Part shown: in pieces, positions 28,831-63,975 of the stretch | Position numbering within the stretch: position 1 is the first letter of the stretch | Layout: every line of letters begins with the position of its first letter | Translations under genes and position numbers: made by a program | Assembly (NCBI GenBank): GCA_963924555.1 | Contig: OZ004588.1 | Span: forward strand, 6,297,205 to 6,361,204 | Reading direction: 5' to 3' | DNA length: 64,000 nt | Origin: Crambe crambe | Lineage: Eukaryota; Porifera; Demospongiae; Poecilosclerida; Crambeidae | The notes under the pieces: generated by a model | Databases searched by the model: none | Told to the model about the DNA's origin: nothing | The model's input: the letters and a program-made list of their open reading frames with translations, nothing else

Positions 28831-30842
28831 ATGGTGTGTTTCATAGATTTCTTTCATCCGCTGGACATACTTTTTAGTATGTTGTTTCCCTGCTTGAGCG
28901 AACATCCAGGGGGCTGGGGGCCCATCAGGGGGACCTCCACTATATTTGATCAGCTCTAGCATGTGGTTATCTGTAGCATGTGGAACACAAAAGGTCACAT
29001 GTACTAACACAAACACAATGAACGTCAGTGCTAATCATGTCAATTTACCCATGGGGTTGACGTCCTGATCTTCCATAGATAGCGATCCTTTCTATAACAT
29101 GGAAAAGACAGGATGTCTGCTAATAAGAGAATCGTAAATGTCTATTCAACCACCACTATCTTTTCTTTCCTTCCCCCTACCTGCTGCAGCTGCAGTGACC
29201 CCCTAACCCCAATAGCTTCCCCCTTGACCCCAAGGAACTACTTCAACCTCCCTCTCCAACCTACAGCCTTGCACCAAGTCTCCTGGTGTTATTAAATTCA
29301 CCATTTACCTGCATCTTCTCAAAGCCAATGGCCATGGCACATCTTGCCAGCCCCCCAGCCACCAATCCCCTGGTGTTAAAGAGAGCGGTGCTGCCAGTGG
29401 AACAGTTATTGTTACAGTTGGAGATGGGTATCCCTGACAACCCCATCTCATACAACGCCCTTTGACCTCTGGTGGAACTTCCAAAAACATAGCCAACATT
29501 CTAGAAAGAGAGAGAGACTCTTTACCATAGAGTTTTTATGAACAGATAATTTCTCTCCACATCCCAATTTAAAATTTGTTCTAGTGCACCATCTGCAGAG
29601 ACTCCCTACATTATAGTAAACAAGCTCCAAGAGCTTTCCAAAAATTTTTAGTCTACTGCGATTGACTATCCACACGCTGCATCAGGAAATCCCTAGGCCA
29701 AACTCTTTTATACTACCAGTGTCATATTTTCTACGTTGGGTTTTAAGCTACAGGTCATGAATATGATTAATATCAATTAGGGGCCAGAATTAATTCAAGG
29801 GGGGAACTAAATTAATATGCACCTCTAACTAACTTCAATGGGAACAAAACCACCATAGCTTGGCAATATTTCGTGTTACAAATAATTTGGTTAATTTAAT
29901 TTTGGTTAACACAATTGGATAGTAACATGCATCTGAAAATACTTTAATAACGCTTTTTACACTGGTAAGGCAGTTCCAAACAAATCACTTGTTTAACGGA
30001 TTTTTCTCCTTTCTCATAGGCAGGCAGGACGAAATGAACTTAAACATAAACTATCTCAGTATACTATGCACCGGTCATGTGTTCTAGTATACAGAGAAAC
30101 AGGAGTATACTTGGGATTTAGTATACAAAGATAAACAAGAGTATACACAAGTTTAAATTTATTTCGATTCTGTCAAAATAGGGCAGGGAAATCCGTTAAA
30201 CAAGTAATCTATTTTGAACTGCCTAATATTGTAATTAATTTTCATTGTTGAACATGACCACAAAAACTAATCGTAAATTGGTGTATGAAGATAGGACATT
30301 CACTTCAAGTAGTTACATAATTATTATACTTGTTCTATTAATTCAAGCTCATTGGAGCTTTCCAAAAATTCTTTCTAGTTCTATAAGGAGCTAATGTCAA
30401 ATTTACTGCACATCAAGTGGTCCACCTTTTATACCAGCAGTATCCTGCTTCTACACATTGGGTTTCATGCAGACACATCGTGAATACAATTATAATGATA
30501 CTGTGCATGGGCAAGGGTGTTTGTTATAAATCCAAATTGAGAAAAAATTTTGTTGGATAATAATTTTGTTTTTATAATTTTCGTGTTAATTTATTTCCGT
30601 TGTTATTGTGATTAGTTTTTATACTGCAAATTCACTTACACAAACAATCCAATAATTGTACTTATTTCAAATTTGCAAATGTAGTGATCATATTCTAGAT
30701 TTCTAACCATGCGTAATAACACATGATCTCTATGACTAGCAGACTTGGGACTGGAAATAATCACATGAAACAAACATATGTATGTGAGAGAACGGGTTTT
30801 TTCAAAAACATAACTTTCCACATCAATTACCTAGCAGTGTTT

Positions 30843-31232
30843 GGTGTCCAGTGGATCACCGGATGTCGAACCTGATATGAAAGAATATAACGGAATAGTA
30901 TGGAAGGAAACAGCTATTCACATCGAGGATCAGTATCAAACTGGAAGATATTGGTCTGTTATCCAGCATAATGCTCCATGTGTTGTATGGTTCTCTGATC
31001 AAAAGGTGACCTCCATCATGATACCTGGTCAAACCTCATGTCCATCTTCCTGGTCTCGTGAATATTACGGCTACCTCATGTCCGAACGCCATAATCATCC
31101 ACACACTGGAACATAATTATGAGTGCTTTGATTCCAATCCTGACACAGTACCAGGTGAAGCATCAGGTACCCCTATCAATTATACCACAATATCTATACC
31201 AGAAATTTCAGTATCCAAAATTAATATTATAT
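30843..31232 (+). pseudogene. Collagen C-terminal-domain fragment (unit 1, upstream)
   Basis: A relic of collagen exon 3 only. Recognisable pieces are [34 protein letters not shown] and [15 protein letters not shown]. The reading frame breaks after HTGT (ACATAATTATGAGTGC where intact genes have ATGTTTGAGTGC). No collagen triplets, signal exon or TATA promoter precede it. Confidence 0.85.
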
Positions 31233-32199
31233 CTGTGGTCTGAAAGTATAAGTCTTTGGGTGGTAAGTTGGTGGTATCACTGCAGTATTGGGAGCAATCA
31301 TTGTCCATGAAAATAGCATAGTGCACACCTTGGAAATTGACTTCAGGTAAAGATATGTTTACTGGTTCAAGCTCATTGGAGCTTTCCAAAAATTTCTAAT
31401 CCTTAAAAGGAGCTCGTCGATCAACAATGATTCATATGGAAGTCACCACATAATAGCATGCATGCAGTGGTCTACTTTTATAGTATCAGTAACCTGCTTC
31501 TACACATTGGGTTTCATGCAGCACATACCAATTAATTACATCGTGAATACAATTATCTTGCACATTTGTATTTGGCACAGATTGTTCTCATCAGAGACTG
31601 AAAAGTGGTTTACTGACTTCAAATGCAGCAATGCTGTTCCAGATTTCTAACCATTGTACAAAATGGCATCACATATCAGACACATAACTCTCGATCACTT
31701 GCAGTTTTGGGACTGAAATTCCATTTTGGATAATTTCTATAATTTGATTTCTATCTGTGGACTGTCACATACTGTGCTGGAGTAAACACTCAAGTTGGGG
31801 TCAGTGTATGAGGACCAGCTGTTCAGGTGTGAGATGAAAGGATCACTTTAGCTGCATCACTGTACTACAAGTGATACTGAACCTTCAACTGCTGGTATAG
31901 TGGTGTAGGGGGAAATTGTCCTGAATCTCACCATTAATACTACATAATTATGAATCTCTCCAAGCATTACCAAGTCACACGTTCCTTTGGCAACCAATGT
32001 GGTGACGACATGTGCTACCAATTAGTAGGTGACCACTTTAAGAAGCCACATGCACTCTCAACTCTTTCCCACAGTGTGTCAGATTAAAAGTTGTAGTCCA
32101 ATATAATTTTTGTGAGGTTAATACACAATTCATATGGTGGACACTTCAATTTTAGCAAAATCATGAAATTTTACCCCACGAAGATTTCCCACTATAGGG

Positions 32200-32206
32200 T
32201 ATAAAA
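32200..32206 (+). promoter_or_regulatory. TATA box of collagen gene, unit 1
   Basis: TATAAAA lies within the conserved context CCCACTATAGGGTATAAAAC, found at every full or decayed copy of this gene (41994, 47745, 49333, 50483, 51281). Its distance to the ATG is 194 bases here and 90 in the 51.4 kb copy. The excess is almost exactly the inserted 111 bp MITE. Confidence 0.8.
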
Positions 32207-32252
32207 CACGGCATTTGACTTCTTGTGCATCTAGTGCTAGTTGGTCAACTTA

Positions 32253-32363
32253 CACTGTAAAAATAAATGTGTAAAAACAACCCATTTTTAGGTTATCTGA
32301 GTTGCAAATTGCAACTCAGATGACCTAAAAATGGGTTGTTTTTACACATTTGTTTTTACAGTG
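32253..32363. mobile_element. 111 bp palindromic MITE in the collagen 5' leader (unit 1)
   Basis: Arms of about 55 bp (CACTGTAAAAA ... TTTTTACAGTG) pair with two mismatches, and TA flanks both ends. The paralogous promoter at 51281 lacks it and reads CAACTTATGAGAAAAC where the insert would be, giving the empty site. The insert lies between TATA box and start codon. Confidence 0.9.
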
Positions 32364-32393
32364 TATAATGAGCAGCTGAAAAGAACCCTAATC

Positions 32394-33661
32394 ATGTTGA
32401 AGTGTGCTGTCTTGGTGTTGATTGTTTTGATCAAGTATTCAGAGAGTACACATGATCCAGCAGGTATGCATGTACCAATAACTAGCAGGGACAGAGGACC
32501 CCAGATAAAATCGAAAAAAAGTTTAGGTTTTGGTCATTTTGATTACTTGTAGTATCTGGGCTGAAATTTGGCTCAACTGTATAACATTTCTTTTAAACTT
32601 CCTGTGTGTAGGTAATGGAACTTTATGTGTTGGAGGACATGTTGTGCACCTCCAAGGTCCTCCAGGAAGGGACGGGAGGGATGGACTGCCTGGGAGATCA
32701 GGATTGGTTGGACAAAAAGGAGAGAAGGGAGATACTGTAGGTAAGTCAGTCTCTTACCAAAGACTAGTAAGTATGCTGCATGCGTGTTGTATGTGTGCAC
32801 TGTATGTGTGTTGCATGCATGTGTACTGCAGGTGTTGCATGCATGTGTACTGCATGTGTTGCATGCATGTGCACTGTATGTACATGATGGTGAGTCACAG
32901 ATCTTTCAAAGAATGTGTGCACTCATCCCCTCCCTCCCCCAACAGGTATCCCTGGACCTCGTGGACCAGCTGGCCTTGAAGGACCTAAAGGTAGCCGTGG
33001 GGTACATGGATACCAGGGCATTGCCGGACCCAGAGGTCCTCAGGGGTTCACTGGTCAGAAAGGAGATCGTGGATATCGTGGACCACCTGGACCAACGAGG
33101 GGAGGAATAACCTACACCAGGTGGGGGAAGTCCTCCTGTCCCAGTGGCACTTCACTCGTGTATGCTGGTAGGACTACAGGGACTCATTATACTCAAAGTG
33201 GTGGTGGTGCCAACTTAGTTTGTCTATCAAACACTCCTCAGTTTCTGAGTTATACCCCTGGGGTGCAAGATGGCAGAGGCTTTCTCTATGGAACTCAATA
33301 TCAAACAGGAGGACCACATAGTGCAGATACTGGTCCATTATCAGGCGTTAGTCAGCATAATGCTCCATGTGCTGTGTGCTACTCTGCCACAAAGGAAGTC
33401 TCCATTATGATACCTGGTCAATTCTCGTGTCCATCTTCCTGGTCTCGTGAATATTACGGCTACCTCATGTCTGAACGCCATAACTATGACCACACTGGAA
33501 TGTTTGAGTGCTTTGATTCCAATCCTGACAGAGTACCAGGTGAAGGATCACATCAACCTCACAATATTGTATATCATGTGGAAGCTAGATGCAACCTCGG
33601 CATTGCCTGTCCTCCATACGTTGCTGGAAGAGAAGTTACCTGTGTCGTATGCTCAAAATAA
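32394..33661 (+). CDS. Short-chain (spongin-type) collagen, unit 1
   Basis: Exons 32394-32463, 32612-32740, 32946-33661. The protein is secreted: signal peptide [18 protein letters not shown], then a short linker, then about 25 Gly-X-Y triplets interrupted once at the exon 2/3 join ([13 protein letters not shown] ... GDTVGIPGPRG), then a globular Cys-rich C-terminal domain ([69 protein letters not shown]). This domain is that of sponge short-chain collagens, described in freshwater sponges as spongin-related and distantly like collagen IV NC1. An in-frame upstream ATG at 32331, supplied by the MITE, would add 21 residues before the signal peptide. The gene lies on the opposite strand to the thiolase transcription unit. 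Confidence 0.88.
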
Positions 33662-34335
33662 CTAACAGAGTACATAAAGAATTTTGTTGTGTATTGTTAA
33701 AATCTGAAATGATAATGATTATAACGTTTGTTACTTTCATCTTTTATTATTTGCCTCACAATGTATTACTCAAATAACCTTTCCATAATGAACAAGACCA
33801 TATTCAAGAAGCTATATATGTTCAAGTTTAGCTATGTTTACTGGTTCAAGCTCATTGGAGCTAATTCCATTTAAAGGAGTTGTTAGGTTACAGATGGAGA
33901 TACCACATAAGGTGGTCTACTTTTATTGCCTGTTTCTACACATTGGGTTTCAAGCAGCACACCGTGGATACAATTACAGTAGAACCTTGATCATCCGAAC
34001 CTCGATTATTCAAAACCTGTTCTAGCGATTAATTTCAAGGTTAAAGAGTTCGTTCTGGGTGTACTAAAATCAGTTTTCTACCTAGCTGTAGTGTAGGTTT
34101 TAGCTAGCTAGAGTGCTTGTCATAGTTGGTAGCCAGCTAAATGAAGCGGTTCACTTGGTAACGCCATATGGTCATGTCAAAGTGGGTGTGGTTATGTAAA
34201 TTTCACTATCTTATCCGACATGCTTTTACTACTCTTCTGTCTGGAGCTGTTTGGATAATTGAGGGACTACACTGCATTGGCAAAGAGCTTTACTTAGGGA
34301 CATAACATGAAGGAAGTTTAGATGATTTCTACCAT

Positions 34336-34677
34336 ATAGTGCAGATACTGGTCCATTATCAGGTGTTACTCAACATAATGCTCCATGTGCTGTATGCTTC
34401 TCTGATCAAAAGGTAACCTCTATTATGATACCTGGTCAAACCTCATGTCCATCTTCCTGGTCTCGTGAATATTACGGCTACCTCATGTCTGAACGCCACA
34501 ATAATCCACACACTGGAATGTTTGAGTGCTTTGATTCCAATCCTGACACAGTACCAGGTGAAGCCTATCAATTATAATATTGTATTTCACGTGGAGCCTA
34601 TTTGCAACCGGCATGGCATTGCCTGTCCTCCATACGTTGCTGGAAGAGAAATTACCTGTGTCGTATGCTCAAAATAG
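34336..34677 (+). pseudogene. Collagen C-terminal-domain fragment (unit 1, downstream)
   Basis: A truncated exon 3. It opens with [19 protein letters not shown] and ends [11 protein letters not shown] plus stop. A small deletion around GEAYQ shifts the frame between FDSNPDTVP and the final NIVFHVEP block. It has no signal or triplet exons. Confidence 0.85.
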
Positions 34678-34840
34678 AAATCCTGAGGACACTGGATCAT
34701 CAAGAACTATTGAACTACGTAGTAGCTTCTTTAGTGTCTGTTATTATGCCTGCTATAGTTATAGCATCTATACCAGAAATTTCAGTATCCAAATACCATA
34801 AGTCTTTGGGTGGTATCACTGTAGTATTGGGAGCAATCAT

Positions 34841-35445
34841 CAGGCCTGTAGCCAGGGGGGGTTCGGGGGGTTCGATCGAACCCCCTTTTTGAAATGAAAA
34901 AAATTTTTTTAAGCGCGAGCACGCACAATTTGCATACGTGCGTGCGTGCATACGTGCGTGCATACGTGAATATCGTTTGCTCAATCGATCGAGAGATATC
35001 CAATCATCCAGAAAAGGTCAGTTTTAGCCTTATGCTAGCTATAACTCTGACTCTAAAGCAGTAGTGCCTGAGACTTTAAAGCATCTAGTGCCTGAAATCT
35101 TAAGTCTAGTCTGCGATTTTTTAATTTGGGAATGGTTTCTGGGGTCAAAGGTCACCAGGTCGCACATGCTCAAAAAACTTAGAAAATCTCTGATGCCAGA
35201 TTCCAGCAACTTTTGTTTTGAAGTCTAGCAAGCTCAGCATTGACTTTTCGGCACCTCCTTTATCTATTCATGGTCTCAAAAGCCTTCTGTTTGAAGGTGA
35301 AGCTTGGAACTTGATGGTGTCAAAATTTTTAGCAACAGGTCAAAGGTCATACCTCTAGCCGTGCCAATCAAGTTCCAAGCTTCACCTGCAAACAGAAGGC
35401 TTTTGAGACTAGGAACAGATAAAGGAGGTGCCGAAAAGTCAATGC
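34841..35445. mobile_element. Foldback transposon, truncated by the duplication junction
   Basis: It has the same left end (CAGGCCTGTAGCCAGGGG) and left arm as the complete element at 44635. It stops at 35445, where unit 2 begins, so it lacks the outer part of its right arm and its right terminus. Confidence 0.9.
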
Positions 35446-37960: not shown

Positions 37961-40900
37961 AGTTCATCGTAAATCCTTAATGAACAGAAAACATAACTCT
38001 AGGTACTAATACATACGTACAGTCAAAGGGTCAGCAATGAGCTTGGAGGAGAGAATCTGGTCCAAAGTGTACTCCTCTTGGAACTGAGCATACGGATTGT
38101 TGACCGAGTGACGATGGTTCTTCTCAGCCACCTTTGCAAACTGCTCTGCAGTTGTCCCATGCCTAGATAGTTATGTGAAACCCAGGAGACAGGTGTATGA
38201 AAAAGAAAAAGAAAGCCATCACTTTAATAGGGAGGTAGGACATGGTGGAGTGGCCTTAATAGAGAGGTGGTCTCTTTAGGGAGGGTTGAAATAGCTGGAA
38301 TAGGTGCTGTTGGGACATGGTGGAGTGGCCTTAATAGAGAGGTGGTCTCTTTATAGGGAGGGTTGAAATAGGTGCTGTTGGGACATGGTGGAGTGGCCTT
38401 AATAGAGAGGTGGTCTCTTTATAGGGAGGGTTGAAATAGGTGCTGTTGGGACATGGTGGAGTGGCCTTAATAGAGAGGTGGTCTCTTTATAGGGAGGGTT
38501 GAAATAGCTGGAATAGGTGCTGTTGGGACATGGTGGAGTGGCCTTAATAGAGAGGTGGTCTCTTTATAGAGAGGTGGTCTCTTTATAGGGAAGGTTGGAA
38601 TAGCTGGTATGGGACATGGTGTGTTTCATAGATTTCTTTCATCCGCTGGACATACTTTTTAGTGTGTTGTTTCCCTGCTTGAGCGAACATCCAGGGGGCT
38701 GGGGGCCCATCAGGGGGACCTCCACTATATTTGATCAGCTCTAGCATGTGGTTATCTGTAGCATGTGCAACACAAAAGGTCACATGTACTAACACAAACA
38801 CAGTGAACGTCAGTGCTAATCATGTCAATTTACCCATGGGGTTGACGTCCTGATCTTCCATAGATAGCGATCCTTTCTATAACATGGAAAAGACAGGATG
38901 TCTGCTAATAAGAGAATCGTAAATGTCTATTCAACCACCACTATCTTTTCTTTCCTTCCCCCTACCTGCTGCAGCTGCAGTGACCCCCTGACCCCAATAG
39001 CTTCCCCCTTGACCCCAAGGAACTACTTCAACCTCCCTCTCCAACCTACAGCCTTGCACCAAGTCTCCTGGTGTTATTAAATTCACCATTTACCTGCATC
39101 TTCTCAAAGCCAATGGCCATGGCACATCTTGCCAGTCCCCCAGCCACCAATCCCCTGGTGTTAAAGAGAGCGGTGCTGCCAGTGGAACAGTTATTGTTAC
39201 AGTTGGAGATGGGTATCCCTGACAACCCCATCTCATACAACGCCCTTTGACCTCTGGTGGAACTTCCAAAAACATAGCCAACATTCTAGAAAGAGAGAGA
39301 GAGACTCTTTACCATAGAGTTTTTATGAACAGATAATTTCTCTCCACATCCCAATTTAAAATTTGTTCTAGTGCACCATCTGCAGAGACTCCCTACATTA
39401 TAGTAAACAAGCTCCAAGAGCTTTCCAAAAATTTTTTGTCTACTGCGATTGACTAGACTATCCACAAGCTGCATCAGGAAATCCCTAGGCCACACTCTTT
39501 TATACTACCAGTGTCATATTTTCTACGTTGGGTTTTAAGCTACAGGTCATGAATATGATTAATATCAATTAGGGGCCAGAATTAATTCAAGGGGGAAACT
39601 AAATTAATATGCACCTCTAACTAACTTCAATGGGAACAAAACCACCATAGCTTGGCAATATTTCGTGTTACAAATAATTCGGTTAATTTAATTTTGGTTA
39701 ACACGATTGGATAGTAACATGCATCTGAAAATATTTTAACAATGCTTTTTACACTGGTAAGGCAGTTCCAAACAAATCACTTGTTTAACGGATTTTTTCT
39801 CCTTTCTCATAGGCAGGCAGGACGAAATGAACTTAAACATAAACTATCTCAGTATACTATGCACCGGTCATGTGTTCTAGTATACAGAGAAACAGGAGTA
39901 TACTTGGGATTTAGTATACAAAGATAAACAAGAGTATACACAAGTTTAAATTTATTTTGATTCTGTCAAAATAGGGCAGGGAAATCCGTTAAACAAGTAA
40001 TCTATTTTGAACTGCCTAATATTGTAATTAATTTTCATTGTTGAACATGACCACAAAAACTAATCGTAAATTGGTGTATGAAGATAGGACATTCACTTCA
40101 AGTAGTTACATAATTATTATACTTGTTCTATTAATTCAAGCTCATTGGAGCTTTCCAAAAATTCTTTCTAGTTCTATAAGGAGCTAATGTCAAATTTACT
40201 GCACATCAAGTGGTCCACCTTTTATACCAGCAGTATCCTGCTTCTACACATTGGGTTTCATGCAGACACATCGTGAATACAATTATAATGATACTGTGCA
40301 TGGGCAAGGGTGTTTGTTATAAATCCAAATTGAGAAAAAATTTTGTTGGATAATAATTTTGTTTTTATAATTTTCGTGTTAATTTATTTCCGTTGTTATT
40401 GTAATTAGTTTTTATACTGCAAATTCACTTACACAAACAATCCAATAATTGTACTTATTTCAAATTTGCAAATGTAGTGATCATATTCTAGATTTCTAAC
40501 CATGCGTAATAACGCATGATCTCTATGACTAGCAGACTTGGGACTGGAAATAATCACATGAAACAAACATATGTATGTGAGAGAACGGGTTTTTTCAAAA
40601 ACATAACTTTCCACATCAATTACCTAGCAGTGTTTGGTGTCCAGTGGATCACCGGATGTCGAACCTGATATGAAAGAATATAACGGAATAGTATGGAAGG
40701 AAACAGCTATTCACATCGAGGATCAGTATCAAACTGGAAGATATTGGTCTGTTATCCAGCATAATGCTCCATGTGTTGTATGGTTCTCTGATCAAAAGGT
40801 GACCTCCATCATGATACCTGGTCAAACCTCATGTCCATCTTCCTGGTCTCGTGAATATTACGGCTACCTCATGTCCGAACGCCATAATCATCCACACACT

Positions 40901-43900
40901 GGAACATAATTATGAGTGCTTTGATTCCAATCCTGACACAGTACCAGGTGAAGCATCAGGTACCCCTATCAATTATACCACAATATCTATACCAGAAATT
41001 TCAGTATCCAAATATTATATCTGTGGTCTGAAAGTATAAGTCTTTGGGTGGTAAGTTGGTGGTATCACTGCAGTATTGGGAGCAATCATTGTCCATGAAA
41101 ATAGCACAGTGCACACCTTGGAAATTGACTTCAGGTAAAGATATGTTTACTGGTTCAAGCTCATTGGAGCTTTCCAAAAATTTCTAATCCTTAAAAGGAG
41201 CTCGTCGATCAACAATGATTCATATGGAAGTCACCACATAATAGCATGCATGCAGTGGTCTACTTTTATAGTATCAGTAACCTGCTTCTACACATTGGGT
41301 TTCATGCAGCACATACCTATTAATTACATCGTGAATACAATTATCTTGCACATTTGCATTTGGCACAGATTGTTCTCATCAGAGACTGAAAAGTGGTTTA
41401 CTGACTTCAAATGCAGCAATGCTGTTCCAGATTTCTAACCATTGTACAAAATGGCATCACATATCGGACACATAACTCTCGATCACTTGCAGTTTTGGGA
41501 CTGAAATTCCATTTTGGATAATTTCTATAATTTGATTTCTATCTGTGGACTGTCACATGCTGTGCTGGAGTAAACACTCAAGTTGGGGTCAGTGCATGAG
41601 GACCAGCTGTTCAGGTGTGAGATGAAAGGATCACTTTAGCTGCATCACTGTACTACAAGTGACACTGAACCTTCAACTGTTGGTATAGTGGTGTAGGGGG
41701 GAAATTGTCCTGAATCTCACCATTAATACTACATAATTATGAATCTTTCGGCTCCAAGCATTACCAAGTCACACGTTCCTTTGGCAACCAATGTGGTGAC
41801 GACATGTGCTACCAATTAGTAGGTGACCACTTTAAGAAGCCACATGCACTCTCAACTCTTTCCCACAGTGTGTCAGATTAAAAGTTGTAGTCCAATATAA
41901 TTTTTGTGAGGTTAATACACAATTCATATGGTGGACACTTCAATTTTAGCAAAATCATGAAATTTTACCCCACGAAGATTTCCCACTATAGGGTATAAAA
42001 CACGGCATTTGACTTCTTGTGCATCTAGTGCTAGTTGGTCAACTTACACTGTAAAAATAAATGTGTAAAAACAACCCATTTTTAGGTTATCTGAGTTGCA
42101 AATCGCAACTCAGATGACCTAAAAATGGGTTGTTTTTACACATTTGTTTTTACAGTGTATAATGAGCAGCTGAAAAGAACCCTAATCATGTTGAAGTGTG
42201 CTGTCTTGGTGTTGATTGTTTTGATCAAGTATTCAGAGAGTACACATGATCCAGCAGGTATGCATGTACCAATAACTAGCAGGGACAGAGGACCCCAGAT
42301 AAAATCGAAAAAAAGTTTAGGTTTTGGTCATTTTGATTACTTGTAGTATCTGGGCTGAAATTTGGCTCAACTGTATAACATTTCTTTTAAACTTCCTGTG
42401 TGTAGGTAATGGAACTTTATGTGTTGGAGGACATGTTGTGCACCTCCAAGGTCCTCCAGGAAGGGACGGGAGGGATGGACTGCCTGGGAGATCAGGATTG
42501 GTTGGACAAAAAGGAGAGAAGGGAGATACTGTAGGTAAGTCAGTCTCTTACCAAAGACTAGTAAGTATGCTGCATGCGTGTTGTATGTGTGCACTGTATG
42601 TGTGTTGCATGCATGTGTACTGCAGGTGTTGCATGCATGTGTACTGCATGTGTTGCATGCATGTGCACTGTATGTACATGATGGTGAGTCACAGATCTTT
42701 CAAAGAATGTGTGCACTCATCCCCTCCCTCCCCCAACAGGTATCCCTGGACCTCGTGGACCAGCTGGCCTTGAAGGACCTAAAGGTAGCCGTGGGGTACA
42801 TGGATACCAGGGCATTGCCGGACCCAGAGGTCCTCAGGGGTTCACTGGTCAGAAAGGAGATCGTGGATATCGTGGACCACCTGGACCAACGAGGGGAGGA
42901 ATAACCTACACCAGGTGGGGGAAGTCCTCCTGTCCCAGTGGCACTTCACTCGTGTATGCTGGTAGGACTACAGGGACTCATTATTCTCAAAGTGGTGGTG
43001 GTGCCAACTTAGTTTGTCTATCAAACACTCCTCAGTTTCTGAGTTATACCCCTGGGGTGCAAGATGGCAGAGGCTACCTGTATGGAACTCAATATCAAAC
43101 AGGAGGACCACATAGTGCAGATACTGGTCCATTATCAGGCGTTAGTCAGCATAATGCTCCATGTGCTGTGTGCTACTCTGCCACAAAGGAAGTCTCCATT
43201 ATGATACCTGGTCAATTCTCGTGTCCATCTTCCTGGTCTCGTGAATATTACGGCTACCTCATGTCTGAACGCCATAACTATGACCACACTGGAATGTTTG
43301 AGTGCTTTGATTCCAATCCTGACAGAGTACCAGGTGAAGGATCACATCAACCTCACAATATTGTATATCATGTGGAAGCTAGATGCAACCTCGGCATTGC
43401 CTGTCCTCCATACGTTGCTGGAAGAGAAGTTACCTGTGTCGTATGCTCAAAATAACTAACAGAGTACATAAAGAATTTTGTTGTGTATTGTTAAAATCTG
43501 AAATGATAATGATTATAACGTTTGTTACTTTCATCTTTTATTATTTGCCTCACAATGTATTACTCAAATAACCTTTCCATAATGAACAAGACCATATTCA
43601 AGAAGCTATATATGTTCAAGTTTAGCTATGTTTACTGGTTCAAGCTCATTGGAGCCAATTCCATTTAAAGGAGTTGTTAGGTTACAGATGGAGATACCAC
43701 ATAAGGTGGTCTACTTTTATTGCCTGTTTCTACACATTGGGTTTCAAGCAGCACACCGTGGATACAATTACAGTAGAACCTTGATTATCCGAACCTCGAT
43801 TATTCAAAACCTGTTCTAGCGATTAATTTCAAGGTTAAAGAGTTCGTTCTGGGTGTACTAAAATCAGTTTTCTACCTAGCTGTAGTGTAGGTTTTAGCTA

Positions 43901-46900
43901 GCTAGAGTGCTTGTCATAGTTGGTAGCCAGCTAAATGAAGCGGTTCACTTGGTAACGCCATATGGTCATGTCAAAGTGGGTGTGGTTATGTAAATTTCAC
44001 TATCTTATCCGACATGCTTTTACTACTCTTCTGTCTGGAGCTGTTTGGATAATTGAGGGACTACACTGCATTGGCAAAGAGCTTTACTTAGGGACATAAC
44101 ATGAAGGAAGTTTAGATGATTTCTACCATATAGTGCAGATACTGGTCCATTATCAGGTGTTACTCAACATAATGCTCCATGTGCTGTATGCTTCTCTGAT
44201 CAAAAGGTAACCTCTATTATGATACCTGGTCAAACCTCATGTCCATCTTCCTGGTCTCGTGAATATTACGGCTACCTCATGTCTGAACGCCACAATAATC
44301 CACACACTGGAATGTTTGAGTGCTTTGATTCCAATCCTGACACAGTACCAGGTGAAGCCTATCAATTATAATATTGTATTTCACGTGGAGCCTATTTGCA
44401 ACCGGCATGGCATTGCCTGTCCTCCATACGTTGCTGGAAGAGAAATTACCTGTGTCGTATGCTCAAAATAGAAATCCTGAGGACACTGGATCATCAAGAA
44501 CTATTGAACTACGTAGTAGCTTCTTTAGTGTCTGTTATTATGCCTGCTATAGTTATAGCATCTATACCAGAAATTTCAGTATCCAAATACCATAAGTCTT
44601 TGGGTGGTATCACTGTAGTATTGGGAGCAATCATCAGGCCTGTAGCCAGGGGGGGTTCGGGGGGTTCGATCGAACCCCCTTTTTGAAATGAAAAAAAATT
44701 TTTTTAAGCGCGAGCACGCACAATTTGCATACGTGCGTGCATACGTGAATATCGTTTGCTCAATCGATCGAGAGATATCCAATCATCCAGAAAAGGTCAG
44801 TTTTAGCCTTATGCTAGCTATAACTCTGACTCTAAAGCAGTAGTGCCTGAGACTTTAAAGCATCTAGTGCCTGAAATCTTAAGTCTAGTCTGCGATTTTT
44901 TAATTTGGGAATGGTTTCTGGGGTCAAAGGTCACCAGGTCGCACATGCTCAAAAAAACTTAGAAAATCTCTGATGCCAGATTCCAGCAACTTTTGTTTTG
45001 AAGTCTAGCAAGCTCAGCATTGACTTTTCGGCACCTCCTTTATCTATTCATGGTCTCAAAAGCCTTCTGTTTGAAGGTGAAGCTTGGAACTTGATGGTGT
45101 CAAAATTTTTAGCAACAGGTCAAAGGTCATACCTCTAGCCGTGCCAATCAAGTTCCAAGCTTCACCTGCAAACAGAAGGCTTTTGAGACTAGGAACAGAT
45201 AAAGGAGGTGCCGAAAAGTCAATGCTGAGCTTACTATACTTCAAGACAAAGTTACAGGAATCTGACATCAGAGATTTTCCAAGTTTTTTGAGCATGCGCG
45301 ACTTGGTGACATGTGCCCGACCTTTGACCCCAGAAACCATTCCTAAATTAAAAAATCGCAGCTAGTCTGGTGGCGCAGGCTCAAGCCTCGTGCGAAAGTC
45401 TGTGGTGGATTGTGAAGAAGTTTGTGAAGTGGCCATCTACTCATAGCAACAATTGCAATAGCAAAATATAAGTCATTGTTGGCAATCAAAAATGGGCGTG
45501 GCCAGGCAAAAATTTTTCCGCGCTAATGCGCAGATACTTTCAAACCCTATTCAAAAATCTCTGGTTACAGGCCTGAATCATAGCCCCATGAAAATAGCAC
45601 AGTACACACCTTAGAAATTGAAGCCAGTCAAGTGTTTGGTTTCTCAGTTTTTTGCCTCGGCACCGAAGTGCCGAGGCGCAGTGCTGGAAGCGGCGATGGT
45701 GGTACGTTTCACGCGCACGCGCAATGATGCACGATGATGCGTATCGATCACGTGCATTAATTTAGCTCTGGCTAGCTAGACAAAGTACTAAGGACAAACA
45801 GACAGGCTCAGCTCAGGCTCGCAGTTACTACGCGATAACTCTAGTACTGATGATTCTTGGCCGTCTTTGCCAACAAATCAAGCCCATTATCACATGCAGA
45901 GAACTGACTAAAAGACAGCAGTGAACAAGACTTTGAGGCTTCCAAACAATGAGAGAATCCAGTACACATACTTCAATCAAGCTATGCTGAGAATAACCAT
46001 TAAACGACAGTTGAACAGCAAGAATAGTGTGTAAATACTAATCTTACTACAATAATAAGCCATGTTGCTCAGTGTGCTTTATTTGGAACTCTCCACAGAA
46101 AAGAAGCTGAGAGAAATATTTTGGCAACATTTTGTAGAAACATTTGACCCCACAACTCCCCACACTTTTCATTAATTATGCCCATGAGTGTTCAGCCAAT
46201 CATCCTTGTAGGACTCTGGTTTCAAGCCGGTGATCCTCAGTGTATCTTTATCGTCTCTTATATACCACTGTCACGTCGTATTCACTATAAAGCATTTAAA
46301 ATTAAAATTAAATAGAGGTTGCACTTAAGTGCCGAGGCATTCCTAGTCTTTTTAAAAGACTAACTTGTTAAACCTAATACACACTTCAAGGATATCCACT
46401 TCAGGTATAGCCATGTTTACTGGTTCAAGCTCATTGGAGCTTTCCAAAAATTTTAAATCCTTTAAAGGAGCTTTAAGATTACACTACATAATAGCCATGC
46501 ATGCAGTGGTCCATTTTTATATAGTATCAGTAACCTGTTTCTACACATTGGGTTTCATGCAGCACACAGTAATTACATCGTGAATACAATTATCTTGCAC
46601 CTTTGCATTGGCACATATTGTTCTCATCAGGTGGTTTACTGACTTCAAATGCAGCAATGCTATTCCAGATTTCTAACCATTGTACAAAATGGCATGATTA
46701 CATATCAGACACATAACTCTCGATCACTTGCAGCTTTGGGACTGAAATTCCATTTTGGATAATTTCTTTGAAGCAGGAAAAAAAGGATACCTGGCTAATT
46801 TGATTCTATCTGTGGGCTGTCATGGAGTAAACACTCAAGTTGGGGTCAGTTCATGGACCAGTTGTTCAGGTGTGAGATGAAAGGATCACTTTAGCTGCAT

Positions 46901-60881: not shown

Positions 60882-61196
60882 TCATCCATGGAGACATCGG
60901 TATACTCGGTGACGAGTGCAACTAAATGAAGTACTCCCCATGTAGCACTTGTACTGGTTGGGGCTGTACACATAGTGACATCTATGCACCAACATATTGG
61001 CAGCTGCATTCTCAGTCTCGGGCTCCTCTTCACCTTGAGAAGAAACATCTTTGTTTCCCAGCATCGATAGAATAGCTGCCAGATCGTTTCCATTTTCTCC
61101 GTTATCGTTTTCTTCCATAGCTGATACTTTAGTGGGCGAGGTCAGACCTCTAGCGAGAAGGATCCCAATGAAGACAAAGACCAAGACGTATTTCAT
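60882..61196 (-). CDS. Small secreted peptide precursor 1 (4-Cys tail, C-terminal Gly)
   Basis: Single exon, 104 residues, family unrecognised. The signal peptide MKYVLVFVFIGILLARG is followed by TSPTK, an acidic segment (residues 28-39 and 56-62, including GEEEPETE), and a basic tail with Cys 73, 84, 93 and 101 (HRCHYVYSPNQYKCYMG ... CTRHRVYRCLHG). It ends in Gly just before the stop, as in precursors of C-terminally amidated peptides. An in-frame ATG 126 bases upstream exists, but it would bury the signal peptide and lies only a few bases after the TATA box at the probable transcription start, so the internal start is chosen. It is a paralogue of the gene at 62505: the signal regions share MKY, GI, L and LTSP-K, and both tails have CHYV. 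Confidence 0.75.
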   Translation of the reverse strand: MKYVLVFVFIGILLARGLTSPTKVSAMEENDNGENGNDLAAILSMLGNKDVSSQGEEEPETENAAANMLVHRCHYVYSPNQYKCYMGSTSFSCTRHRVYRCLHG

Positions 61197-61287
61197 GATG
61201 TGAGTTATGTATGCAGCCTGCTGGATTAAGTGAGATGGAGTGGATGAAATAGCTATATAGAGCTGAAGGAAAATGTTTGACTCTCTT

Positions 61288-61295
61288 CTTTTATA
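61288..61295 (-). promoter_or_regulatory. TATA box of peptide gene 1
   Basis: TATAAAAG on the minus strand, 92 bases before the ATG. The spacing resembles that of the paralogue at 62505. Confidence 0.75.
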
Positions 61296-62416
61296 CTCCT
61301 CCCTCATGAGTGAGTGTGCCAAGCATGGTTATATGGTTACAGGTTTAGTCATCTTGTACTTGGTTGATAGTAGTGAAGGGCAACTGTCTCTTTTGATAGT
61401 AGTCCTGTTTATGATTCTAGTCTTTAGTCATGACTTGCTGATAGCTAGCTAAACAGTTGATCTAAATCCATGGAGATGAGTATGAAACATGGGACATTGA
61501 TTAGTAGCCAGGTGGGAAAGTGGTTCCAGTGTTTCACTGTTCCAATAGCAACCTTTGTTGACTGTATATAGGCATTGTATTTCTAGGTCATGACTTGTAC
61601 TGATACTATACTACACTATAGCTAGGTCTTTGGATTACTTTGATTATTATCATGTAGTTGAACTCACAATGAAAGTTGAAAGCTCTTCATTGTAAGACAA
61701 TAGAGTGTATGTCTGAGTTTATTTCCCCCTAAAACCTACAGTATAGCTAACTAGCTCAATTAATGATCCCTTAGCAATGTTTGAGCATGCATATACAATG
61801 AAAATGTACTCGAGATTGATTTTTGATAGTGATGAAGTCATTAAGTAACTGCATGATGTTCATGTTGCTATGAAAAAAAAGGATCAGGGCAGCCACAGAA
61901 TATCCATGGTGAACGTCAAGTAATTGATCACTTAGCATACAATGAAAGTTTATTTCATTTGATAGTGATGCAGTTATTAATTAGCTGCTGCTATAAAGAA
62001 TAGCAAGGGAAGCCATTGAATGTCTTGATATCAATTACACTTACAAACACATTGAAAATACTGAAAGTATTTCCCCTCTATTTTGATAATGGCGTGGTTT
62101 AGGTATACAAGAGAAAAAGAAAAAAGGTTGCTGAATTAATTTCAAGGGTAGCCATAAAGTGTATGGATAGAGAATCGTTCCTTAGCTCATGAATATGAAA
62201 ATAAAAATGATGCATATGCTGTTATACTGAGCATGTGAGAGAGCATACAGGAATGAAGACCTGGAAATAAACTTTCATTCTAACTAGTATAACCAAATGT
62301 GAATATTAGCTAAAGATCAAAATCTCATCTCATAATGAGTATAGCTATGAAGACTCATAAACTCTCCTGGTTGGATTAGCTAACTCATGGCCACATGCAC
62401 ATCATGAATAGAAGGG
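61296..62416. other. Shared upstream region between the two peptide genes
   Basis: About 1.1 kb between the two TATA boxes, AT-rich, with no ORF of note. Phrases such as ATTGATTTTTGATAGTGATG, AAGTCATTAA and AATGAAAGTTTATTTC/AATGAAAGTTGAAAGC recur, and the CATACAATGAAA motif occurs more than once. It could hold common regulatory elements. Confidence 0.5.
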
Positions 62417-62424
62417 TATAAAAG
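62417..62424 (+). promoter_or_regulatory. TATA box of peptide gene 2
   Basis: TATAAAAG, about 81 bases before the ATG, the same octamer as in the divergent paralogue. Confidence 0.75.
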
Positions 62425-62504
62425 TAGAGGTGTTTAAGCCAAAGTATCATCACTGTTCCACACTTTGAGATCAAGATTCAAACGACCAGTTGAGAAAAAA
62501 AATC

Positions 62505-62786
62505 ATGAAGTATCTCATCATTTTCCTTCTTCTCGGTATTGTTCTCACTAAGGCCCTGACCTCTCCTGCTAAGGATTCAAACAAAGATTTGGAAGGGATC
62601 ATGAACCAGAACGTGGACTCAAATAGCCCAGGAGGTGCACTTGTTGTCGAAGAAGAAGAAGAAGAACCTTCATCCCAAACTCAAGAGGATGCATCTTCAA
62701 ACTGGTTCTGGCGTCGACCTAAACGTTACCGTTACTGTCACTACGTTAGGGTTAAGCGCTGCTACTATCGTTATCGTCGGGGATAG
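62505..62786 (+). CDS. Small secreted peptide precursor 2 (Arg/Tyr-rich 2-Cys tail, C-terminal Gly)
   Basis: Single exon, 93 residues, family unrecognised. The signal peptide is MKYLIIFLLLGIVLTKA. The spacer ends in six consecutive Glu (residues 49-54), then SSQTQEDASSN. The tail from residue 67 is WFWRRPKRYRYCHYVRV, then KRCYYRYRRG. The last 27 residues hold eleven Arg/Lys and no acidic residue, with two Cys seven residues apart flanked by Tyr and Arg. This resembles, by architecture only, single-disulfide beta-hairpin antimicrobial peptides such as arenicin or tachyplesin. The terminal Gly would be an amide donor. No Lys-Arg plus acid junction marks a certain processing site; the acid-to-basic switch at residues 66-70 is the likely boundary. 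Confidence 0.8.
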   Translation: MKYLIIFLLLGIVLTKALTSPAKDSNKDLEGIMNQNVDSNSPGGALVVEEEEEEPSSQTQEDASSNWFWRRPKRYRYCHYVRVKRCYYRYRRG

Positions 62787-63272
62787 TTATCACCATGGAG
62801 GGATAAATAGATGGCTGCAAAACTGTAATGTGACTTTTTTTAAATAGAATTAGCATGAAGAGACATTTTTAGTAACCATTTGCCAGCATTTTAGTTGGAT
62901 AATAAACAAAACTTAATAGCTAAGACAATTTTTTTAGATAATTTCATTGAAAGTTTCTTCAATGCTGTATTGTATGTAGTTACACACCATGAGGGCAACA
63001 AAATTGCTTTATATATAGCTAATTTCTTCAAGATTAACCCGTGATACAGGGTGGACATGATTGTGATCACCTGGGCCCTGGCCAGAAGGGCATTTGCAAT
63101 TCGTGTGTGACATTACGTATCTCATGCTATACTGAGCATGTGCACAGTCATTATTTCCAAGGCAACTGATTGATTTCTACCACTTTAATACATAGTAGGT
63201 AGCTGAACATATGTAATTAGCTGCTACATCAAAAAGGATGATGAACAAGTAAAGGAAAAAAATATTTATTCA

Positions 63273-63544: not shown

Positions 63545-63840
63545 CTAGCAATTAATTACATGATGAATGACATGCACACAACACAGCTGCTGCAGCCAGT
63601 TAGCATTGACTTCGCAACATCTAAAAAAGATGCTTGAATGTTCTACTGATTCCATTTTGACATTAATAATATGCACACATGCAGCTGCAGCATTGACTTA
63701 GCGACATCTAAGTCAGCATTTTAACTAAAATAAAATGTTTTGCTGATTCCATTTTGACATGCATGACATGATGAATAACATGTACATAGCTGCTGCAGTC
63801 AGTCGGCATTGACTTAGCAACATCTAGGTCAACTATTGAT
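63545..63840 (+). repeat. About 100 bp tandem repeat, three units
   Basis: Units contain CAGCTGCTGCAG-CAGT, GCATTGACTTAGCAACATCT, AA and TGCTGATTCCATTTTGACAT. The array ends about 45 bases before the broken third peptide fragment. Confidence 0.88.
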
Positions 63841-63885
63841 ACTGAAAGAAAAGATGCCTGAAGTTTTTTTTCTGGGAAAGAAATT

Positions 63886-63975
63886 GAGTCTGAGCCTGAA
63901 GAACCTTCATCCCAAACTCAAGAGGATGCATCTTCAAACTAGTTCTGGTGTTACCATTACTGTCATTACGGGGTT
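63886..63975 (+). pseudogene. Fragment of a third peptide gene
   Basis: 63886-63942 reads ESEPEEPSSQTQEDASSN and then TAG, matching peptide 2 residues 50-66, with the Trp67 codon TGG turned into a stop. After the stop, TTCTGGTG-TTACCATTACTGTCATTACG still matches the gene, with about 14 bases deleted. There is no signal-peptide part upstream. Confidence 0.85.

Follow-up and report, generated by a model that had tools for sequence, protein, structure and literature searches.

The DNA analysed here is a 64,000-nucleotide stretch (the window) of Crambe crambe contig OZ004588.1, positions 6,297,205 to 6,361,204, in which two short divergent genes, A1 and B1, appear to encode the precursors of small secreted cationic peptides (Table 1). 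Each has a TATA-like box, an open reading frame (ORF) in one exon, a hydrophobic start, an acidic spacer and a cationic, Cys-containing tail; the single-exon status was deduced from the ORFs. The original prediction had described two head-to-head ORFs with a common TATAAAAG box before both ATGs, related signal peptides of the form MKY...LTSP-K, acidic propieces, basic tails with four and two Cys, and a terminal Gly, and all of these features were confirmed. The two ATGs are 1308 bases apart, and the box starts 99 bases before the ATG of A1 and 88 bases before that of B1, so that 91 and 80 bases separate its end from the respective ATG. An upstream ATG is present in the A1 frame at 61307, and the MKY start is the one common to the paralogues. 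Behind A1, the first 250 bases contain no AATAAA-like signal. Throughout, signals were judged by hydrophobicity only and propiece/tail borders were placed by eye in all ten members of the family described below, tail charge was taken as K+R-D-E, and the signal border of A1 follows the small-residue rule for signal cleavage sites.

Table 1. Positions of the A1 and B1 genes and associated features in the window
Feature	Position	Strand	Basis
Gene A1	60882..61196	-	one-exon ORF, 104 aa; 90% identical paralogue A2
A1 signal peptide (predicted), residues 1-17	61146..61196	-	hydrophobic start; border inferred, small-residue rule
A1 acidic propiece, net -9	60990..61145	-	border by eye
A1 basic tail, C-x10-C-x8-C-x7-C, Gly end, +5	60885..60989	-	border by eye
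TATAAAAG box of A1	61288..61295	-	A1/A2 92% identical over 200 bases before ATG
TATAAAAG box of B1	62417..62424	+	motif position
Gene B1	62505..62786	+	one-exon ORF, 93 aa; paralogue B2
B1 signal peptide (predicted), residues 1-17	62505..62555	+	hydrophobic start; border inferred
B1 acidic propiece, net -10	62556..62699	+	border by eye
B1 basic Tyr/Arg tail, C-x7-C, +11, RRG end	62700..62783	+	border by eye
AATAAA polyadenylation-like signal behind B1	62901..62906	+	6-base motif, weak evidence by itself
Decayed B-type copy, in-frame stops	63781..63969	+	48% identity, 1 TGA + 2 TAG within match

When the window was scanned for ORFs of 75-160 aa with a hydrophobic start, a middle part of charge <= -5 and a charge >= +4 over the last 30 residues, only A1 and B1 were retrieved; 100 first-order Markov windows, each of 64 kb, yielded none. 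This precursor profile was chosen after the finding was known, and the existence of intact paralogues is stronger evidence than this rarity. What had been described as a pair is a family, located on a single contig (C11), of at least eight genes (A to C types), two uncertain relatives (D1 and D2, at L012:703-1095 and L014:8235-8621) and decayed copies. A2 (C11:5201062-5201367) lies 1.16 Mb from A1 and has no partner gene, and B2 is found at C11:6365368-6365685. Since the closest relative of A1 is this distant and partnerless, the head-to-head arrangement is incidental. With D1 and D2 included there are ten intact one-exon ORFs, encoding precursors of 93-133 aa with tails of 28-45 residues. Decayed family copies were found near B1, and the one listed in Table 1 matched B1 by blastn at 80% over 95 columns. 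Weak matches at L021, L040, L049 and L050 were checked by eye and lacked the precursor layout. The family is both tandem and dispersed, with intact and decayed copies.

Four of the ten genes (A1, A2, B1 and D2) have an exact TATAAAAG box no more than 200 bases from the ATG, and the upstream sequences of the others contain CATAAAAG (B2), AATAAAAG (C1, C2 and C4) or TATATAA (C3 and D1). A bidirectional promoter shared by A1 and B1 was considered and rejected, as the TATA boxes are approximately 1.1 kb apart and A2 is solitary.

The layout of a host-defence precursor, with signal, acidic propiece (net -2 to -19) and basic Cys-containing tail (net +5 to +16), was found in all ten members. The Cys framework is C-x10-C-x8-C-x7-C in A1 and A2, C-x9-C-x8-C-x7-C in C4, and the A1 pattern with an extra Cys in front in C3; it is C-x4-C-x8-C-x7-C in C1, C-x4-C-x8-C-x5-C in C2, C-x9-C-x2-C-x7-C in B2 and C-x7-C in B1. 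D1 and D2 have C-x12-C in His/Tyr-rich tails, each containing 13 K/R/H, nine Tyr and two Cys, so that a metal-binding or pH-dependent role is possible for these two. A terminal Gly is present in six of the ten precursors (A1, A2, B1, B2, C3 and C4; 6/8 in the A-C types). Sites of the RxxR type are close to the propiece/tail border in B1, C1, C2 and C4; C3 has KR ten residues before the border, D1 and D2 have dibasic sites near it, and A1, A2 and B2 have neither type there. The letters CHYV, which the original prediction had noted as shared, do occur in the tails of both A1 and B1, but their homology is uncertain because none of three alignments placed the CHYV of B1 opposite the first Cys of B2. 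The alignments also place the first Cys of B1 differently, and for this reason the idea that B1 lost an inner Cys pair by a single clean deletion, which would have implied nested C1-C4/C2-C3 bridges, was dropped. An Asn is conserved at the border in A1, A2, B1 and B2; cleavage there by an asparaginyl endopeptidase was also dropped as an explanation, as C1, C3 and C4 lack the Asn. A search with PF01650 gave nothing at E <= 0.001, and it also missed GPI transamidase, which is expected in eukaryotes.

That the genes are coding is supported by their one-exon ORFs, by the pattern of conservation between A1 and A2, and by the ratios of nonsynonymous to synonymous substitution (dN/dS). A1 and A2 are identical at 289/306 sites of the coding sequence (CDS) and at 183/199 in the 200 bases before it, whereas the flanks are less alike (354/470 upstream and 122/182 just downstream). 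The sole indel in the CDS is 9 bases long; outside it, 7/27 are multiples of three. Nei-Gojobori dN/dS was 0.50 for A1/A2, 0.42 for B1/B2, 0.43 for D1/D2, 0.41 for C2/C4 and 0.66 for C1/C4, in a comparison of eight pairs made without a significance test and with synonymous sites saturated or nearly so in A1-B2 and C3/C4.

Database comparison produced no convincing match for the family in Pfam, NCBIfam or PDB: the best E values were 0.04, 0.015 and 2.6, respectively, all to unrelated families and taken as chance, and the suggestion that the family is undescribed holds to this extent. Of 64 pattern stretches examined as possible A1 relatives in prokaryote genomes none was confirmed, and no B1 relatives were found in phages. 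Text searches of one open-access library gave no title on the family among the papers listed, and no exact peptide strings, subscription papers, outside preprints and supplements being mostly uncovered by that search.

We consider it probable that the sponge family to which A1 and B1 belong supplies precursors of host-defence (antimicrobial) peptides. A strong positive charge, as in these tails, is the usual mark of membrane-active antimicrobials. The predicted signal peptide would direct the precursor into the secretory route, and the acidic propiece would neutralise the tail until a protease cuts it off. Peptides from the four-Cys tails would have two disulfides and perhaps a hairpin-like shape, and that of B1 a single disulfide, while the terminal Gly, where present, could be converted to an amide by PAM. 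The cationic product may bind and disrupt microbial membranes, and in this way police or shape the microbes of a filter feeder.

Among known systems, tachyplesin and protegrin are cationic and aromatic peptides with two disulfides and an amide-donor Gly, of 16-18 residues with closely spaced Cys, whereas the sponge tails have 28-45 residues and wide loops and gave no convincing PDB sequence match. The likeness to tachyplesin and arenicin drawn in the original prediction is one of layout only. The wider CS-alpha-beta group has six to eight Cys, and no CS-alpha-beta defensin family was among the Pfam matches. The published systems that follow are taken as described in excerpts of the reports cited. 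ASABF of Suberites domuncula is likewise a cationic Cys-rich antimicrobial peptide of a sponge (PMC3210614), but it has eight Cys in a CS-alpha-beta motif and its mature part directly follows the signal, whereas the present family has an acidic propiece, tails with two, four or five Cys, and no such motif. The best reading appears to be a lineage-restricted antimicrobial family with a layout like that of the Hydra periculins and arminins, which have a signal, bipartite charge, a Cys pattern (periculin) or terminal Gly (arminins), and lineage-restricted paralogues clustered in few loci (PMC10945409, PMC11452194). They belong to another phylum (Cnidaria), the Cys spacing varies among the sponge tails, and the likeness is one of layout description only. 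The placozoan arminin-like AMP1-4 also begin with a signal, are acidic towards the N-terminus and basic towards the C-terminus, and end in a Gly suited to PAM, but are approximately 150-250 aa long and have DE cleavage motifs (PMC11452194), compared with 93-133 aa in the sponge. Cys-rich sponge peptides have rarely been found (PMC13418204), though sponges live among dense microbes, and the family provides concrete candidates both for effectors of a sponge on its microbes and for what sponge PAM amidates.

Several observations weigh against an antimicrobial family. C1, C2, D1 and D2 lack a terminal Gly, and A1 has neither a dibasic nor an RxxR site before its tail. D1 and D2 are only weakly tied to the other members, a search with D2 having retrieved no A-C gene. 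For C1/C2 the dN/dS was 0.94. Acceleration of the tail is not a general feature. Among the four of eight pairs to which a significance test was applied, nonsynonymous density was higher in the tail than elsewhere in the precursor for B1/B2 (p 0.005), C1/C2 (p 1.5e-8) and C1/C4 (p 2e-5) and borderline for A1/A2 (p 0.054), and the pairs are not independent. There was no clear excess in C2/C4, C3/C4, A1-B2 or D1/D2, the last having identities of 0.81 in the tail, 0.88 in the propiece and 0.72 in the signal. Because synonymous differences were raised in the C1/C2 tail as well (p 0.008), part of the excess may come from misalignment or from conversion affecting the front half. The data suggest rapid change of the tail in some members of the family, and are not proof of positive selection. 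A further point comes from the barrettides and stryphnines, sponge peptides with a similar precursor plan for which the excerpt of PMC13418204 gives no antibacterial activity up to 80 and 50 uM in the reported tests, although its authors did not rule out such activity for stryphnines.

Because those peptides share the precursor plan and act on fouling, without antibacterial activity in the reported tests, the first alternative is that the family supplies chemical-defence or antifouling peptides directed at larvae, epibionts or grazers. Sponge Cys peptides built from a signal, a spacer and a C-terminal core do act on barnacle settlement (PMC13418204, PMC8713285). The barrettides of Geodia barretti, reported in these excerpts only from that species, have a ribosomal precursor with a signal, a variable spacer and a C-terminal core that forms a beta-hairpin with two disulfides. 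We nevertheless regard this role as unlikely, given the tail charge of +5 to +16 and a barrettide spacing (Cys 5, 7, 18 and 23; C-x1-C-x10-C-x4-C) that is unlike that of the family tails, for example C-x9/10-C-x8-C-x7-C in A1, A2 and C4; the barrettide core was not found in the family.

As to amidation, a genome search returned 32 Cu2_monooxygen matches. On contig C19, at approximately 251-256 kb (L032), a PHM exon is followed by an NHL exon and then by a hydrophobic segment and a tail. All 13 distinct PDB sequences matched by the PHM exon at E <= 0.01 are PAM (best 3e-6), and this exon also matches PF03712; the NHL exon gave three PDB matches, of which the strongest was to fly Thin, in its NHL region (2.8e-7), and two were to PAM (1.7e-4 and 0.0027). 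A bifunctional, apparently membrane-anchored PAM is therefore probably encoded at this site. Contig C20 carries clusters that hold many of the remaining Cu2_monooxygen matches, some of them interrupted by stops. The peptides had been called amidation-ready, which fits the terminal Gly of A1 and B1 but not the family at large: amidation is plausible for the six members that end in Gly, and is not a family rule.

As a second alternative, the same six Gly ends and the probable PAM gene could instead indicate amidated, hormone-like signalling peptides acting on sponge receptors, and a 2021 essay called the PAM substrates of sponges unknown and finding them needed (PMC7935135). We give this somewhat less credence than an antifouling role, since the tails are divergent, copies have decayed and the Gly is not conserved; each precursor has a single cationic tail, and not the peptides repeated between dibasic sites of a multi-copy neuropeptide precursor; and no amidated peptides turned up when Ephydatia was surveyed by mass spectrometry (PMC9525235). 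Returning to host defence, we tentatively propose, as a possibility that falls well short of the likelihood of the antimicrobial assignment, that the family comprises natural substrates of sponge PAM, namely lineage-restricted, amidated, disulfide-bonded cationic peptides within a chromosome-wide secreted-peptide hub that joins the A-D family to a cluster of multi-copy KKAEAE... precursors and to a larger linear-helix family. If true, animals without nerves used amidation for defence against microbes, and perhaps for signalling as well.

It is improbable that the products are structural or mineral-binding secreted peptides of a silica, collagen or mucus matrix. The tails are cationic, and His/Tyr-rich in D1 and D2, and the genome has many exons resembling silicateins, which are sponge proteins; set against this, no known matrix domain was found in Pfam or NCBIfam, and several four-Cys tails have similar Cys spacing. 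The silicatein-like exons include three tandem sets at C15:871803-883000 that share 63-78% identity with the silicatein sequence used as query, which supports a sponge origin of the DNA. Two one-exon genes on contig C13, which we take to be cathepsins, are 47-49% identical to the silicatein query, and the 113 matches overall are of very mixed identity. Least likely is that the genes are non-functional or pieces of larger spliced proteins, for although decayed copies lie near B1, there are ten intact ORFs, conservation of the A1/A2 CDS and promoter region between diverged flanks, and dN/dS < 1 in the six pairs with unsaturated synonymous sites.

Other candidate secreted-peptide loci were observed on C11. 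At L051:1462-1848 (C11:5643637-5644023, plus strand) an ORF has a signal-like start, an Asp/Glu-rich propiece and a linear, Arg-rich amphipathic tail (FQFFRRIIRRVRRGLRRSMRRR...). Its family is larger: a search gave 39 matching stretches (not genes) at E <= 10, and for 30 the E value was below 0.005. On C11 there are 30/39, which include weak matches to genes C2 (E 0.16) and D2 (E 1.3), and nine are on contigs C17, C13, C9 and C14. A second member, at L070, has the same layout with a frame open to the stretch end.

L014:235-903 (C11:6627235-6627903, minus strand) encodes a multi-copy peptide precursor with a signal-like start, MQGLALFLIASFF, and repeats such as KKAEAEGWNIGYSRPL; the protein had no Pfam match at E <= 0.1. 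There are four repeats of the KKAEAEGWNIGYSRPL type in L014, one of them a variant, and six in L062:1059-1826, and units of the KKAEEERFFPF type also occur in the multi-copy precursors. In L062 (C11:6722001-6732000) five ORFs have the MQGLALFLIASFF start, which a sixth, related ORF lacks. The layout of dibasic site, acidic-Ala spacer and peptide recalls that of the yeast alpha-factor precursor or of a neuropeptide precursor. These precursors are of note because, according to an excerpt of a 2022 paper, phoenixin and nesfatin were the first sponge neuropeptides to be identified (PMC9004410).

Elsewhere in the window, the ORFs of two blocks, 30835-34892 and 40628-44686, give identical or almost identical translations; the blocks are approximately 9.8 kb apart. 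Each includes a collagen-like gene whose end contains Cys (ORFs 32894-33661 and 42688-43455), and related ORFs are present near 48 and 52 kb.
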